64,000 nucleotides of DNA from Gemmatimonadaceae bacterium (GTDB lineage: Bacteria; Gemmatimonadota; Gemmatimonadetes; Gemmatimonadales; Gemmatimonadaceae): assembly GCA_030835125.1 (NCBI GenBank), contig JAUQWM010000040.1:62001-126000 (forward strand), in the 5' to 3' direction. This document shows positions 35,636-55,324 of the stretch, one piece after another (position 1 is the first letter of the stretch; each line of letters begins with the position of its first letter). The notes under the pieces are model-generated. The model was not told where the DNA came from and searched no databases. It saw nothing but the letters and a program-made list of their open reading frames with translations. A program made the translations under genes and the position numbers.

Positions 35636-36162
35636 CAGGCTTGCCGGTTCAGCAGCCTGGCGCCCGGCGCCTGGCCGCGGTCGTTGACGTCCGGATAACC
35701 CGCCGCAGGTGGAGTCCCGCCGGCCGCGAGGCAGCGGAAGAACTCGTCGCCAACGGAAAGTCCCTGCTGGAGGACGTCGCGATTGACGGCCACCTCGCGC
35801 GACAGTGCGTAGGCCGATGCCTCCAACTCCGCGCCGGCCTGACGCAGCGCCTCGGTGCTCTGGCTTCCGAGCGCATCGCACAGGTGACGGGGAGCGGTTT
35901 CCTCATCGCAGCCCAGCCGCGCCAGCAGCGTGCGCCGCCGGGTGCGCGCCTCGCCGAGCGTGAGCAGGAGTCGCTGCAACGCGAAGACGGAATCGTCGAG
36001 CGCCTCGAGGTCGTCACTGGCGATCGCGGCGCGCTGGCGCATCATGATCGCCCTGGTTTCATCGAGCAACCGGCGTTCCGAGTGCAGCGTGTCGATGAGT
36101 CCATTGATGAGCCGCACGTGCGGCTCGGCTGCGGCAGGCCGTTCCACGGCCGTTGCGGTCAT
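35635..36162 (-). CDS. flgN: FlgN-family export chaperone
   Basis: 175 residues. Helical protein of FlgN type, expected to escort FlgK and FlgL to the export gate. It has the long helices with LDETRAIMMRQRAAIASDDLE and LEASAYALSREVAVNRDVL. Position directly before flgK with a 1-base overlap supports the call, since sequence conservation in this family is low. It overlaps flgJ by 4 bases. Confidence 0.85.
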   Translation of the reverse strand: MTATAVERPAAAEPHVRLINGLIDTLHSERRLLDETRAIMMRQRAAIASDDLEALDDSVFALQRLLLTLGEARTRRRTLLARLGCDEETAPRHLCDALGSQSTEALRQAGAELEASAYALSREVAVNRDVLQQGLSVGDEFFRCLAAGGTPPAAGYPDVNDRGQAPGARLLNRQA

Positions 36163-36515
36163 GCAGGCCCCCGGGCCTTGCCCGTGGCCGGCGCCTCAGC
36201 CGGCTCGGTGATGTCGCCCGCGGGCTGGAGCCCCGGGCGAAGCTGTCGCATCATGGCCCACTCGAGGCCATCGTCGTCCCAGGATCCGGGGACCATCGCG
36301 GCCAGGTGCCCGTCGAGAAGGCCGGCGAACATCTCCTCACCGGCGCCCCCGTCGACGAGGCCGCCTTCGGGAACGGTCTGGCGCATCGCCGTGAAGAGCT
36401 GCTGCACGAAGACGCCTTCGAGCTGCTGGATCGCGCCACGCAGGCGGTCCTGTTCCGCGGCAGCGCGCCGCGATCCGTCAAGCAATACGCCGGGTGTCCC
36501 GGCAATCCCGTTCAT
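36159..36515 (-). CDS. flgJ: FlgJ-type rod-binding protein, lacking a hydrolase domain
   Basis: 118 residues. Rod-binding domain only: LEGVFVQQLFTAMRQTVPEGGLVDGGAGEEMF corresponds to the conserved FlgJ N-terminal region (residues 33-64, quoted in parts such as LEGVFVQQLF). The C-terminal muramidase of proteobacterial FlgJ is absent. Another enzyme must therefore open the peptidoglycan for the rod; see the M15-like domain in fliK. It overlaps flgI and flgN by 4 bases. Confidence 0.9.
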   Translation of the reverse strand: MNGIAGTPGVLLDGSRRAAAEQDRLRGAIQQLEGVFVQQLFTAMRQTVPEGGLVDGGAGEEMFAGLLDGHLAAMVPGSWDDDGLEWAMMRQLRPGLQPAGDITEPAEAPATGKARGPA

Positions 36516-37693
36516 CGCGTAATTACCTCGGCCGTGATGGCGCCCGCCTGACGGAGGGCCTCGAAGACTTGTGCGACCAATGCGCCCGGCGTTCGCGCGG
36601 TATGCAGGACAGCGGCGAGATCCTGGACACTGGATCCCGCGCGGACGAGCAGCGCTCCCGACGGCGACTGCTGGCTAGTATCGGCAGGCTGGGCGCCAAT
36701 CGACACTGTGATCCCGCCCACACTTACCATTCCCGGCCCGATCGTCAGGTCGCCGCCCGCCACAACCGTCCCCTGGCGCGCATCGATGACGATGCGGGCG
36801 GGGCGGATCGGCGTTATGCGCAACTCGGCGATCCGGGCAAGCGTGGCGGCCGCCGCCGAGTCCGGGACAGTGAGGGCGACGGATCCCGGATCCTCCACGC
36901 GCGCGCTGCCGGGGCCGATGACGCTGTCGATCACCGCGGCGATTCGCGCGGCCGTGCCGATGTCGGGCTGGCGCAGGAGGAGCCGCTTCGCCCCGGTTGC
37001 CGCCGGGCGAGGCAGGTCGGATTCGAGCAGGCCGCCTGACGGGATGCGGCCACTCGCCTCGACGATGGTGGCCCGTCGGCGGGTGCCGACGACCTGGTCG
37101 TCCACGATCATGGGTCCCTGGGCTGCGCCGAACGCCTCGCCATTGGCCTCGGCCACGAGGGGGGTCATCCAGAGCACGCCGCCGCGCAGCGAGCGCGCGT
37201 CACCCACGGACGCGACCTGGACGTCGAAGCGGCCACCGGCGCGAAGCCAGGGGGACACCTCCGCGGTGACGAGAACCGCGGCGACGTTGCGCGTCCGGAG
37301 GAGTTCCGGCGGTACCGAGACATCGAATCGGCGAAGCAGGTTCGCGATGGACTGCACCGTGTGCGCCGACGAGCGCCCGCTGCCGGTCTGGTCACCGGTG
37401 CCGGTCAACCCCGTGACGATTCCATATCCCACCAGGCGGACTGGCGCGGACTCGTTCACCGACGCGACGTCGCGAATCGGGACGGTCCCCTGCGCATCGG
37501 CGGTCGTGACGATCGCGGCCAGCAGCGCGCCGAAGACGCCGAGGAAGAGCCGGGCCAGCCGGCTCACGTTGCGCGTGACGGCGATCCAGGAACCGGTGAT
37601 CGCGGCAGCGCCGCGCGAGCGCGGGCGTTCGGGGATCGCGGTCCAGCCGTGAGGCGCATCGCCGGCGCTGATGCGCCGGTGCGTGCTGGTCAT
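36512..37693 (-). CDS. flgI: Flagellar P-ring protein FlgI
   Basis: 393 residues from the ATG at 37693 that overlaps the flgH stop as TAATG; ATG 37702 is also possible. A signal peptide is evident only after about 42 residues (LFLGVFGALLAAIVTTADAQ), so GTG 37567 would give a more normal precursor of 351 residues. FlgI features: VRLVGYGIVTGLTGTGDQTG, ARSLRGGVLWMTPLV and the C-terminal FEALRQAGAITAEVI. It forms the periplasmic bushing around the rod, assembled with FlgA. Confidence 0.94.
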   Translation of the reverse strand: MTSTHRRISAGDAPHGWTAIPERPRSRGAAAITGSWIAVTRNVSRLARLFLGVFGALLAAIVTTADAQGTVPIRDVASVNESAPVRLVGYGIVTGLTGTGDQTGSGRSSAHTVQSIANLLRRFDVSVPPELLRTRNVAAVLVTAEVSPWLRAGGRFDVQVASVGDARSLRGGVLWMTPLVAEANGEAFGAAQGPMIVDDQVVGTRRRATIVEASGRIPSGGLLESDLPRPAATGAKRLLLRQPDIGTAARIAAVIDSVIGPGSARVEDPGSVALTVPDSAAAATLARIAELRITPIRPARIVIDARQGTVVAGGDLTIGPGMVSVGGITVSIGAQPADTSQQSPSGALLVRAGSSVQDLAAVLHTARTPGALVAQVFEALRQAGAITAEVITR

Positions 37694-38349
37694 TACGGCC
37701 ATATCAGCCCCACGATCCGCCCGATGATGCCGCTGCGCGGCCGGTCGAGCCCCTTCGACGTATAGACGATGCGCGCGTCGGCGATGGCCGCCGACTCCAC
37801 GATGTCCCGGGCGTCGACGTCCTGCGGCCGGAGCACTCCGGTGAGCGTCATTTCCTGCTTCGCCTTGTCGACATCGATGATCTTCGAGCCCTTGACCTGC
37901 AGCAGGCCTTCGGGCGTGACGGCCACGACGCGAACGGGGATCACCCCGATGTAGCGGCTGCCCCGCGTCGCCTGTCCGCGGCTGCGCGAAGCGCCGCGGT
38001 CGGCCGACTCGAACCCGCCACTGATCGGTCCGATGCTGCTGACCGATGCCGGGGTCGGCGGATCGGCGCCGACTCCCATCTGCCGTTCGCGTGACGCCTC
38101 GGACACCGTGCCCTTGTCCGCGGTGGCGAGGGCATACTCGTCGACCGCGACCTTGATGATGTCGCCCACGCCGAACGCCCGCCGATCGGAGGTCCAGCTG
38201 GTCATGCGGCGCCTGGGGGCGGACGCGGCCGCGGTGGTGTCCGGCGCGACCGGTGCCTGCGCGGCCGCATGGGACGCGCCGAGCATGGCCCACACGGCGA
38301 GTGCGGCGAGCTTCGGAGCCGTGGTCAGTTTGCGTGTCATCGGATTCAA
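37693..38349 (-). CDS. flgH: Flagellar L-ring protein FlgH, without lipidation cysteine
   Basis: 218 residues. Outer-membrane ring protein. It has a cleavable-type signal (LAALAVWAMLGASHAAAQ) but no cysteine anywhere, so it lacks the lipobox that most FlgH proteins carry. Conserved parts: VGDIIKVAVDEYALATADKG, YIGVIPVRVVAVTPEGLLQV, MTLTGVLRPQDVDARDIVES and the C-terminal IGRIVGL. It overlaps flgA by 4 bases and flgI by 1. Confidence 0.95.
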   Translation of the reverse strand: MNPMTRKLTTAPKLAALAVWAMLGASHAAAQAPVAPDTTAAASAPRRRMTSWTSDRRAFGVGDIIKVAVDEYALATADKGTVSEASRERQMGVGADPPTPASVSSIGPISGGFESADRGASRSRGQATRGSRYIGVIPVRVVAVTPEGLLQVKGSKIIDVDKAKQEMTLTGVLRPQDVDARDIVESAAIADARIVYTSKGLDRPRSGIIGRIVGLIWP

Positions 38350-52276: not shown

Positions 52277-52984
52277 TCAGCCAATGATTCGGCGCACGAC
52301 GCCGAGGGTGATTTCGACGGGTCCGCTCGTGAGGACGGCGCCGGTGGGGGAGTAGGACAGTCCGTCGACGGTCCCGGTGAAGTAGGTGGTCTGCGGGGTC
52401 GCGACGCCGCTGGCGTCAGGCACCATCACCCGGACGTGATAGAGCCCGGGCTGGAGCCCGTTGCCGGCCGAGCCGATGTCGAACTCCTGCTGCGTGCCGG
52501 CCTTGAGGTATCCGAGCTGGCGGCGTCCGATGACGTCGCCGTTGTCGTTGAGCAGCTCCAGCGTCGCGTTGCCCTCGCGCTCGATGTCGGCGATGATCTT
52601 GCCGTCGATGGCGCCGGTGCCGTCGTCGGCCAGCACCACCTGGTCGCCGACCGCGATGACGGTCTTGCCGATCGTGCCCATCGCGACCGAGCTGTTGATC
52701 GCGGACAGGATGACGTCACCCTGGTCCTTCTGGACCCCGAGCTGGTCGTTGATGTTGAGGAGCTGCTCCAGTCCCGAGAACTGCGCGAGGTCGGCCGCGA
52801 GCTGGTGGCCGTCCATCGGGTTCATCGGGTCCTGGTACCGCAACTGCGTGGTGAGCAGGCGCATGAACTCATCCTTCCCCAGCTTGCCGCCGGGGCCGGT
52901 GGCGCCCTGTCGCATGAGCGAGTTCGTGAGCCCGCCCGTCGACTGGGTGGCAGCCGGCTGGATGGCGGGAATGGTGTTAGGCAT
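52277..52984 (-). CDS. flgD: Flagellar hook assembly scaffold FlgD
   Basis: 235 residues from ATG 52984; longer readings of this frame run inside fliK. N-terminal KDEFMRLLTTQLRYQDPMNP is the family hallmark (interaction with export gate and FlgE), followed by FSGLEQLLNINDQL and a C-terminal FlgD Ig/Tudor-like part with GLQPGLYHVRV. It is a cap that guides hook polymerisation. It overlaps the end of fliK by 8 bases. Confidence 0.95.
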   Translation of the reverse strand: MPNTIPAIQPAATQSTGGLTNSLMRQGATGPGGKLGKDEFMRLLTTQLRYQDPMNPMDGHQLAADLAQFSGLEQLLNINDQLGVQKDQGDVILSAINSSVAMGTIGKTVIAVGDQVVLADDGTGAIDGKIIADIEREGNATLELLNDNGDVIGRRQLGYLKAGTQQEFDIGSAGNGLQPGLYHVRVMVPDASGVATPQTTYFTGTVDGLSYSPTGAVLTSGPVEITLGVVRRIIG

Positions 52985-54740
52985 CAAGGTCTCCTCGCGA
53001 GCCGCGCCGCTGGCGCTGCCGTGGCGTCTCGCCGTGTGGGTGATCCTGCCGGGAAGGCGAGCCGCGATGGTCGCGACTGGCGGTCGATCCACTGCCAGGA
53101 GCGGTGGCGGCGGCGCGGGTCGCGTCGCGCTCCCCGACCACGCCTTGCCACAACCCGTCACGGCCGCTCGCCGTCCGGACGGTGACGTTCTCCGCATCGA
53201 GCCCCTGCCGCTGGAGGGAGTTCGACAGCTCCGCCATGTGGCGGCCGAGATCCTCGGCCATCCCACGATCGGACATGTCGAACGCCGCGCCCACCGAGTT
53301 GCCGCGCAGGTCGATGCGGATGCGATCCTCGCCGCCCTGGGGCTGGTCGAGTCGCAGGAGCACGCTGGTGAGTGGGCGCTCGGCGGCGGCCTCACGGAGT
53401 TCGACCACCTGCGAGACGCGATCCGCGGCCCACGTCGCCGCGGCATGGTCGATGCCGCTGGCACGTTGCGGTGTGGCCAGTTCGCGGCCCGGTGGTGCCG
53501 GGAGCGGCGATGCGCCCGGGAGTTCCCTGGACTCGATGAGCGAAGGCGCCGGAACGCGCTCACGCTGCTCGCGCGGCTGGTCGCCATCGGACGGAGCGGC
53601 ATCCGGTGCCAGCCCCGGTCCTGCGGGCGCTACCCGCGGCGGCGCTTCCGCGACGGGAGCCGCCTCCACTGGTGAGGCCACCGAGGCGACCATGAGGGGT
53701 GTCGACGCCTCCGGACCACCCGAAAGCAGCTGGGTAGCGTTGGAGGTCGTGCGCGCCATGCCCTTCGGGGTCACGGATGCCAGCTCGGCCACGCGCGCGA
53801 CGGTCGCGACGCGCGCAGTGGGCTCCGATTGAGCCAGCTGCGCCACGCGGGCGACCTGCGCCACCTGCGCCACCTGCGCGACTCCGGACATCGAGACGGT
53901 CGCCGAAGCTTGCGTGGGCATGACGTTGCCCTGGTGGCGCGGCGCTTCCAGCTCCGGGAGCGTGCTCGCCAGCGTGACCGGTTGCGCCGGGGCGCGACGC
54001 AACTCCACGTGGCCACGATCGCGCGCTCCGAGCGTGTGGAGGCCCTCTTCACTGGCCACCTGGGCCAGCCGGTCGAACGCGACCACGTCCGTGTATCCGC
54101 CGTTGATCTTCAGGTCGGCGGCCATGCCGGCGGTGTGCCGGGAGTTGCGCGTCCACGTCACGATGGCGCCTGGTCGCTCGCGCCCCTGCGCGAACAGCGC
54201 GTCCTGGCGATCCTGGCTGCGCACCGTCTCCACAACCTCGACCCGATACCCGAACTCGGTCGTCAGGCGGTTGACCACCCGCTCGAGCCGCTCGCGAAAC
54301 GCCGGGTCGAGGCCGGTGCTCTTCCCGGAGGTCGTGACGGGAACCGCGGAACCGACGGTTGACGTCGGGGTGCCTGACGACAGCGGTGCCAGTGCAGCCG
54401 CGAGCAACGCGGGAGGGATGCGAGAAGCCGCCACGGCGTCACCGTGGAGCGGCGCGTCAGGCACGGCAACCGCGGCGGCGTCCCGCAGGTCCTCGCCGCC
54501 GAGCAGCACGCCGGCAAGGATGCGCGAGGCGGCCTCGGCGTCGCCGTGGAGGGACTCGTCAGGCGCGGCGACCGTGGCGGCGTCCCGCACACCCTCGCCG
54601 CCGGGCAGCACCCCGGGGCCGCCCATGGCCACGGCGAGGGCATCCGTGAACGCGTCGCCGGTGGCGGCGGGCGTTCCGGAGCCCACGCTCGATGCGCGGG
54701 GTTCGACCGGCGGCAGGACCGTGAGCAACGGAATCGTCAC
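52977..54740 (-). CDS. fliK: FliK hook-length control protein with embedded M15-type peptidase domain
   Basis: 587 residues. The C-terminal FliK domain is at about 445-525 (RIDLRGNSVGAAFDMSDRGM). Unusually, residues about 145-248 match the M15/VanY-CwlK peptidoglycan peptidase fold: TEFGYRVEVVETVRSQDRQD, SRHTAGMAADLKI and DRGHVELR, which give zinc ligands His202, Asp209 and His244. A 34-residue imperfect repeat occurs twice at 47-80 and 81-113, and a VAQ-rich stretch at 286-303. No signal peptide, as expected for a type III export substrate. Overlaps its neighbours by 4 and 8 bases. Confidence 0.88.
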   Translation of the reverse strand: MTIPLLTVLPPVEPRASSVGSGTPAATGDAFTDALAVAMGGPGVLPGGEGVRDAATVAAPDESLHGDAEAASRILAGVLLGGEDLRDAAAVAVPDAPLHGDAVAASRIPPALLAAALAPLSSGTPTSTVGSAVPVTTSGKSTGLDPAFRERLERVVNRLTTEFGYRVEVVETVRSQDRQDALFAQGRERPGAIVTWTRNSRHTAGMAADLKINGGYTDVVAFDRLAQVASEEGLHTLGARDRGHVELRRAPAQPVTLASTLPELEAPRHQGNVMPTQASATVSMSGVAQVAQVAQVARVAQLAQSEPTARVATVARVAELASVTPKGMARTTSNATQLLSGGPEASTPLMVASVASPVEAAPVAEAPPRVAPAGPGLAPDAAPSDGDQPREQRERVPAPSLIESRELPGASPLPAPPGRELATPQRASGIDHAAATWAADRVSQVVELREAAAERPLTSVLLRLDQPQGGEDRIRIDLRGNSVGAAFDMSDRGMAEDLGRHMAELSNSLQRQGLDAENVTVRTASGRDGLWQGVVGERDATRAAATAPGSGSTASRDHRGSPSRQDHPHGETPRQRQRRGSRGDLDA

Positions 54741-55324
54741 TGCCCGGGTCCGGTGCGTGGCCGCAGCGTGCCGCGACTGATGCTGGCCGCCCGATCCGGT
54801 GGGAGCGCGGTGAGCACGCCCGCGGCCTGCTTCTCCGTCAGGGAGCCGAGGATCGCCGCCACGTCCGCGTCGTCGAGTTGCACCAGCACCTTGGCCGCCT
54901 CACGCGGCGACATCGCCGCGAAGATCCGCGCAATACGGCGCAACTGGATGCGGGGCGTGGAGTCGGGCTGCGCCGCGGGGGGCGGGGCGCTGGTCGCGGG
55001 CCGTGAGGTATCCGCGTGGGCAACCTGTGACTTTGTGTCCGCGCCGGTCGTGACCGCCGGCTTTCCGGCGTCGTGACTGGCTCCGGAGTCGGCATGAGCG
55101 GCCACGGTCGTCGCGGAGTCGGGAATAGCGGCGGGCGCAGTCGCGAGTTCCTCGGCGGCGGCCACCACCGTGGGCTCCTTGTGGCCACCATCGCTGGTGG
55201 AATCCGCCGGCGCGGCGTGTGCCGAGTCCGGCGTGGCCGCGGGCGCCATCACGATGGCGACCCCGGTACCGCCGCCAAGGCCGAGCACGAGCCCGAGCAC
55301 CGACAGCAGGATGAGCTTCTTCAT
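54737..55324 (-). CDS. MotE-like protein with MgtE-N-type domain
   Basis: 195 residues. An N-terminal transmembrane helix or uncleaved signal (LILLSVLGLVLGLGGGTGVA) and a long Ala/Asp/His-rich linker of about 100 residues. The C-terminal helical domain has AKVLVQLDDADVAAILGSLT and EKQAAGVLTALPPDRAASI, typical of MgtE-N/FliG-like repeats seen in MotE. MotE is a chaperone of the stator protein MotC in alphaproteobacteria; here it lies between fliJ and fliK. The coiled coil of classic MotE is weak. Confidence 0.78.
   Translation of the reverse strand: MKKLILLSVLGLVLGLGGGTGVAIVMAPAATPDSAHAAPADSTSDGGHKEPTVVAAAEELATAPAAIPDSATTVAAHADSGASHDAGKPAVTTGADTKSQVAHADTSRPATSAPPPAAQPDSTPRIQLRRIARIFAAMSPREAAKVLVQLDDADVAAILGSLTEKQAAGVLTALPPDRAASISRGTLRPRTGPGQ

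Follow-up and report, generated by a model that had tools for sequence, protein, structure and literature searches.

A probable wall-opening role for an M15 peptidase domain carried by the flagellar ruler FliK in Gemmatimonadota

The window, a stretch of 64,000 nucleotides from a Gemmatimonadaceae bacterium, contains a flagellar cluster in which fliK adjoins flgD and flgE. The features used below, with the basis of each assignment in brackets, are as follows.

52977..54740, minus strand: fliK, hook-length control protein with an inserted M15 peptidase domain, 587 aa (single open frame; Flg_hook above cut-off)
53985..54332, minus strand: M15 (LAS-type zinc) peptidase domain, FliK residues ~137-252 (phmmer, profile, AF2, VIA-align)
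54180..54221, minus strand: motif R174-SQDRQDALFAQG-R187, also found in phage endolysins (invariant R178 and G186; alignment with phage homologues)
54114..54143, minus strand: zinc motif SxHxxGxAxD, S200-R-H202-T-A-G-M-A-A-D209, with ligands His202 and Asp209 (57/57 invariance; Ply500 equivalents)
54003..54023, minus strand: R240-D241-R-G-H244-V-E246, with putative catalytic Asp241 and third zinc ligand His244 (phage alignment)
53160..53384, minus strand: Flg_hook domain of FliK, the export-switch part, aa 453-527 (Pfam PF02120)
54737..55324, minus strand: gene upstream of fliK, labelled MotE-like, overlapping the fliK start by 4 bases (ORF list; position kept in related clusters)
52277..52980, minus strand: flgD, directly downstream of fliK, start approximate (ORF list; in related clusters an FlgD orthologue follows fliK immediately)
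36159..36515, minus strand: flgJ, 118 aa, rod-binding domain alone, no hydrolase (Pfam Rod-binding only)

FliK starts at a GTG codon overlapping the stop of the upstream gene, within a stop-to-stop frame of 640 aa, and its C-terminal Flg_hook domain passes the Pfam cut-off (PF02120, E 1.3e-7, 31.7 bits against 29.8). The M15 and Flg_hook domains share one frame in 62/62 genomes where both were located, so the fusion is no local error, and misjoined frames are ruled out as its source. Elsewhere in the cluster, a 593-aa frame called FlgI (36512-38293) overlaps FlgH (37693-38349) in a different frame; the true FlgI start probably lies downstream of that frame's start.

The peptidase assignment is supported at several levels of sequence comparison. 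Searched against solved structures with phmmer, the window FliK matches the endolysins Ply500 (2vo9, E 3.7e-5) and LysB4 (6akv, E 3.4e-4), and a profile of 57 relatives matches the same two at E 8.3e-13 and 1.6e-12, respectively. PHROGs endolysin families are matched by all 57 members. The Pfam VanY model scores the window FliK below its cut-off (E 0.029, 14.6 bits against 25) and matches 18 of the 57 relatives at E ≤0.001, the best at 3e-6. Since the M15 profile and fold tests are positive, this score reflects low model sensitivity rather than absence of the domain; passing the cut-off of one Pfam model is no defining feature of the M15 clan.

The active-site residues are almost entirely fixed. 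S200, H202, G205, A207, D209, D241, G243 and H244 are invariant in 57/57 relatives, as are R178 and G186 of the first motif, which reads R174..R178-Q179..QGR187 in the window FliK, while Q185 and E246 are each kept in 56/57. Ply500, for which the SxHxxGxAxD motif has been reported, binds zinc through His80, Asp87 and His133 (PMC3315420). FliK His202 and Asp209 are the counterparts of His80 and Asp87, and His244, by its position in the motif, that of His133. The last motif, RD(P/R)GH(V/L)E in FliK, aligns with D-x-P-H-F-E of phage homologues, making Asp241 the probable catalytic acid, and the loop preceding it is shorter in FliK than in those homologues. A D-x-x-H arrangement, with Asp three positions ahead of the final His ligand, is likewise present in related phage proteins and is the endopeptidase pattern rather than that of VanY. 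This motif marks the L-Ala-D-Glu endopeptidase subgroup (M15C).

An AlphaFold2 model of the domain, computed from the 57-row alignment, reached a pLDDT of 90.0 and a pTM of 0.81. The first four Foldseek matches to this model are the L-Ala-D-Glu endopeptidases Ply500, LysB4, LysECD7 and ChiX, with VIA-align Z scores of 14.4, 14.0, 12.9 and 12.7; superposition onto Ply500 (2vo9) gave 2.4 Å over 117 residues. All VanX, VanY and LdcB types scored lower, at Z ≤10.0. The predicted fold thus points to L-Ala-D-Glu endopeptidase as the probable specificity, and a VanY/VanX-type carboxypeptidase is less likely, given its lower Z and different end motif. The FliK domain resembles the four enzymes in fold (Z 12.7-14.4) and in SxHxxGxAxD, and differs from them in lacking a wall-binding domain and in being embedded in FliK. 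An earlier note, made from the letters of the window, had read an M15 layout with ligands His202, Asp209 and His244 into this segment; its coordinates and residue numbers proved exact, and the profile, the model and the invariance of the ligands bear out the fold with an intact zinc site. A chance motif is ruled out by the same three lines of evidence.

The fusion is widespread within the phylum. A FliK-type M15 match occurs in 85 of 395 Gemmatimonadota genomes (E below 1e-38), FlgJ occurs in 102/395, and the two coincide in 83 genomes (Fisher p 8e-64). Outside two families, f2 and f11, FliK-M15 accompanies FlgJ in 83/86 FlgJ-bearing genomes. The three exceptions are G188 and G353, in which no FliK was located and whose assemblies may be incomplete, and G041, which carries a decayed copy. 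In G041 (L091, L228) the zinc ligands of the FliK M15 are gone, and FlgI lies on a long branch; the sister genome G091, from that genus too, retains the domain, and the pair forms a natural test of what takes the enzyme's place. A scan of 84,980 species with a single motif, by which absence beyond Gemmatimonadota is not proven, found 61 loci, nearly all labelled Gemmatimonadota; the remaining labels are one 'bacterium', one Kuenenia and one Planctomycetota, the latter two taken to be mislabelled. Weaker relatives, 35-54% identical, occur on viral contigs. One viral contig (L191) has an M15 match at the C-terminal end of an open frame of 809 residues, in contrast to endolysins, which are short. 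Family f6 genomes (e.g. G347:C15, G286:C75) have M15 matches in 364-460-aa frames (E 4e-11 to 6e-17), which are further from the FliK type and apparently stand-alone.

The window FlgJ, as the earlier note had stated, is single-domain, and Pfam found no hydrolase C-terminal to its rod-binding domain. A tail of ~180 residues was present in 6 of the 90 other FlgJs read, all six belonging to the deep family f11, and the 84 non-f11 proteins all have tails of ≤54 aa with no hydrolase. Pfam identifies the f11 tail as SLT in one protein (E 1.1e-31), an SLT match lies inside the FlgJ frame in 6/6 f11 genomes, and no M15 match was found in these six. What follows the rod-binding domain in f11 FlgJ (L223:7535-8410, L038, L046, L058, L235, L242, L259) is thus a lytic transglycosylase, not the enteric glucosaminidase. 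FlgJ-SLT and FliK-M15 form a complementary pattern in Gemmatimonadota: within the same phylum and for the same presumed task, f11 carries a lytic transglycosylase on FlgJ and a FliK without M15, whereas the window's group carries a peptidase on FliK and a bare FlgJ.

Family f2 (10 genomes) has neither arrangement, with a bare FlgJ and, in the eight FliKs read, no M15. In the FlgI tree, rooted at the midpoint only and with a weakly supported branch joining f2 to f4, f2 forms one clade (100/99) nested inside the M15-bearing class, which is most simply read as loss of M15 in f2. Two f2 clusters (L216-L221, in G045 and G031), in which neither FlgJ nor FliK bears a hydrolase, showed no other hydrolase and no SLT among their genes. 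The ten f2 genomes and G041, all devoid of both enzymes, indicate that M15 is replaceable, and dispensable in some lineages. The pairing of bare FlgJ with FliK-M15 described in the earlier note extends to 83/86 FlgJ-bearing genomes outside f2 and f11 and breaks down in f2 and G041. These two in part supply what the note had named as counter-evidence to its idea, relatives without the segment whose FlgJ has no hydrolase either.

Where present, M15 is the best conserved segment of FliK and the one under the strongest purifying selection. In comparisons of the window with four relatives, identity is 59-64% in M15, 47-52% in the FliK C-domain and 30-36% in the linker. Across ten pairs, dN/dS is 0-0.13 in M15 versus 0.09-0.37 in FliK downstream of it, as simple Nei-Gojobori counts in which some dS values are saturated.

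We consider it probable that FliK also serves the flagellum as its peptidoglycan hydrolase, replacing the FlgJ-borne or SltF-type enzyme of other bacteria and opening the wall for the rod or hook, because the usual wall-cutting part of FlgJ is missing. A phage-endolysin-type M15 peptidase, placed N-terminal to the FliK switch domain, would be threaded out by the export apparatus N-terminus first; the M15 segment would leave the tip of the rod or early hook into the periplasm, fold and bind zinc, and then cut stem peptides, so that the wall loosens at the point of rod or hook passage. In Salmonella, secretion of FliK is intermittent as rod and hook grow and begins with the N-terminus; a fusion of FliK to beta-lactamase has periplasmic activity, highest in mutants lacking a complete rod (PMC13344023), showing that a FliK-borne enzyme can reach the periplasm and fold there. 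When Borrelia loses a separate transglycosylase, its hooks stay beneath the wall (PMC8517470). Taken with the distribution, these precedents lead us to infer that FliK-M15 cleaves stem peptides at the site of rod or hook passage; we likewise infer catalysis, the bond cut, and the place and time of action. The earlier note's proposal, a peptidase delivered to the wall through the export gate as substitute for a hydrolase on FlgJ, gains support from the complementary distribution (6/6 f11; 83/86 outside f2 and f11), and its further suggestion of action on the hook cap found none.

More tentatively, M15 might work at the rod or hook tip while the FliK C-terminus sits in the export gate, and might, in the class, have taken over from a transglycosylase that FlgJ carried ancestrally. 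With M15 at the tip and the C-terminus still in the gate, the wall would be cut at the tip alone and in step with the measuring of length. Besides f2 and G041, several points count against wall opening by FliK: a folded domain in the ruler would have to unfold for export; FliK export also goes on once the outer membrane has been crossed, so that M15 could act outside; and four SLT enzymes encoded elsewhere in the genome could serve instead.

The last point leads to an explanation that we regard as unlikely, though it carries some weight, in which a general lytic transglycosylase recruited by the single-domain FlgJ opens the wall, as SltF does in Rhodobacter and LTase in Borrelia, leaving FliK-M15 a secondary role such as peptide trimming or P-ring seating. 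A single-domain FlgJ with a separate SLT has precedent (PMC8517470), four SLT proteins are available in the window's genome, and f2 and G041 manage without M15. None of the four, however, is encoded in the window's contig (C16), and none of the four families is significantly commoner in flagellated genomes (p 0.12-0.37 across 80 family genomes), so that no association of these SLTs with flagella was found and a flagellum-dedicated one among them is rejected. FliK-M15, by comparison, occurs in 39 of the 44 flagellated genomes, a count that takes in three with a FliK-like match only, and in 0/36 others. The strong selection on M15 also speaks for an important job rather than a secondary one. Glucosaminidase was not found in ten genomes surveyed. 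One protein of the window's genome (L293, G000:C62:73263-74717) apparently combines an FHA domain, a membrane segment and an SLT domain; close orthologues occur in 4/89 family genomes only, the window's own included.

A second alternative places M15 outside the cell, where FliK exported through the finished hook would release a lysin against neighbouring cells or external wall fragments. The domain is endolysin-like, and in model bacteria FliK does reach the medium after the hook crosses the outer membrane. We judge this reading improbable, since very little would be released, the gene has a fixed place within the basal-body gene cluster, no immunity gene was noticed beside fliK, and the complementary pattern with FlgJ-SLT would be a coincidence.

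Less probable still is that M15 binds without cutting, as a wall-sensing or tethering module that holds stem peptides. The module does lie in the ruler part, and the Hedgehog fold, found among the structural matches, exemplifies a LAS zinc site usable without catalysis; against this, invariance of the zinc ligands together with the putative catalytic Asp in all 57 relatives exceeds the usual need of binding. That M15 is a neutral passenger or a spacer merely lengthening the ruler is hardly credible and is rejected: FliK middle regions do vary freely in sequence and length, and G041 holds a decayed copy, but a segment that is the best conserved of FliK, with the low dN/dS given above and an invariant active site, does not fit such a role.

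If wall opening by FliK-M15 is correct, the ruler of a type III secretion system is itself the wall-opening enzyme; one exported protein would both measure length and open the wall, and a phage-lysin-type fold would have been reused. Many bacteria have a FlgJ without hydrolase, and how the flagellum crosses the wall there is often unexplained; FliK-M15 provides a specific candidate for a whole bacterial lineage. FlgJ already offers a case of a wall hydrolase exported as a fusion by the flagellar apparatus. A peptidase on the ruler was not found described: like the earlier note, which knew of no such fusion, we found no published FliK-peptidase fusion in the open-licence literature, including that on FliK and FlgJ of Gemmatimonadota.

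Dual-domain FlgJ of Salmonella and E. coli, composed of rod-binding and glucosaminidase domains, likewise joins a flagellar export substrate to a wall hydrolase, which clears the way for the rod through the wall (PMC8517470). In the window's group, by contrast, no hydrolase is attached to FlgJ, and it is the ruler FliK, rather than the rod cap, that carries the enzyme, a peptidase instead of a glycosidase. Rhodobacter SltF and Borrelia BB0259/LTase share with the present system a single-domain FlgJ and a hydrolase on another protein (PMC8517470); they are separate lytic transglycosylases, whereas here the enzyme is part of FliK.
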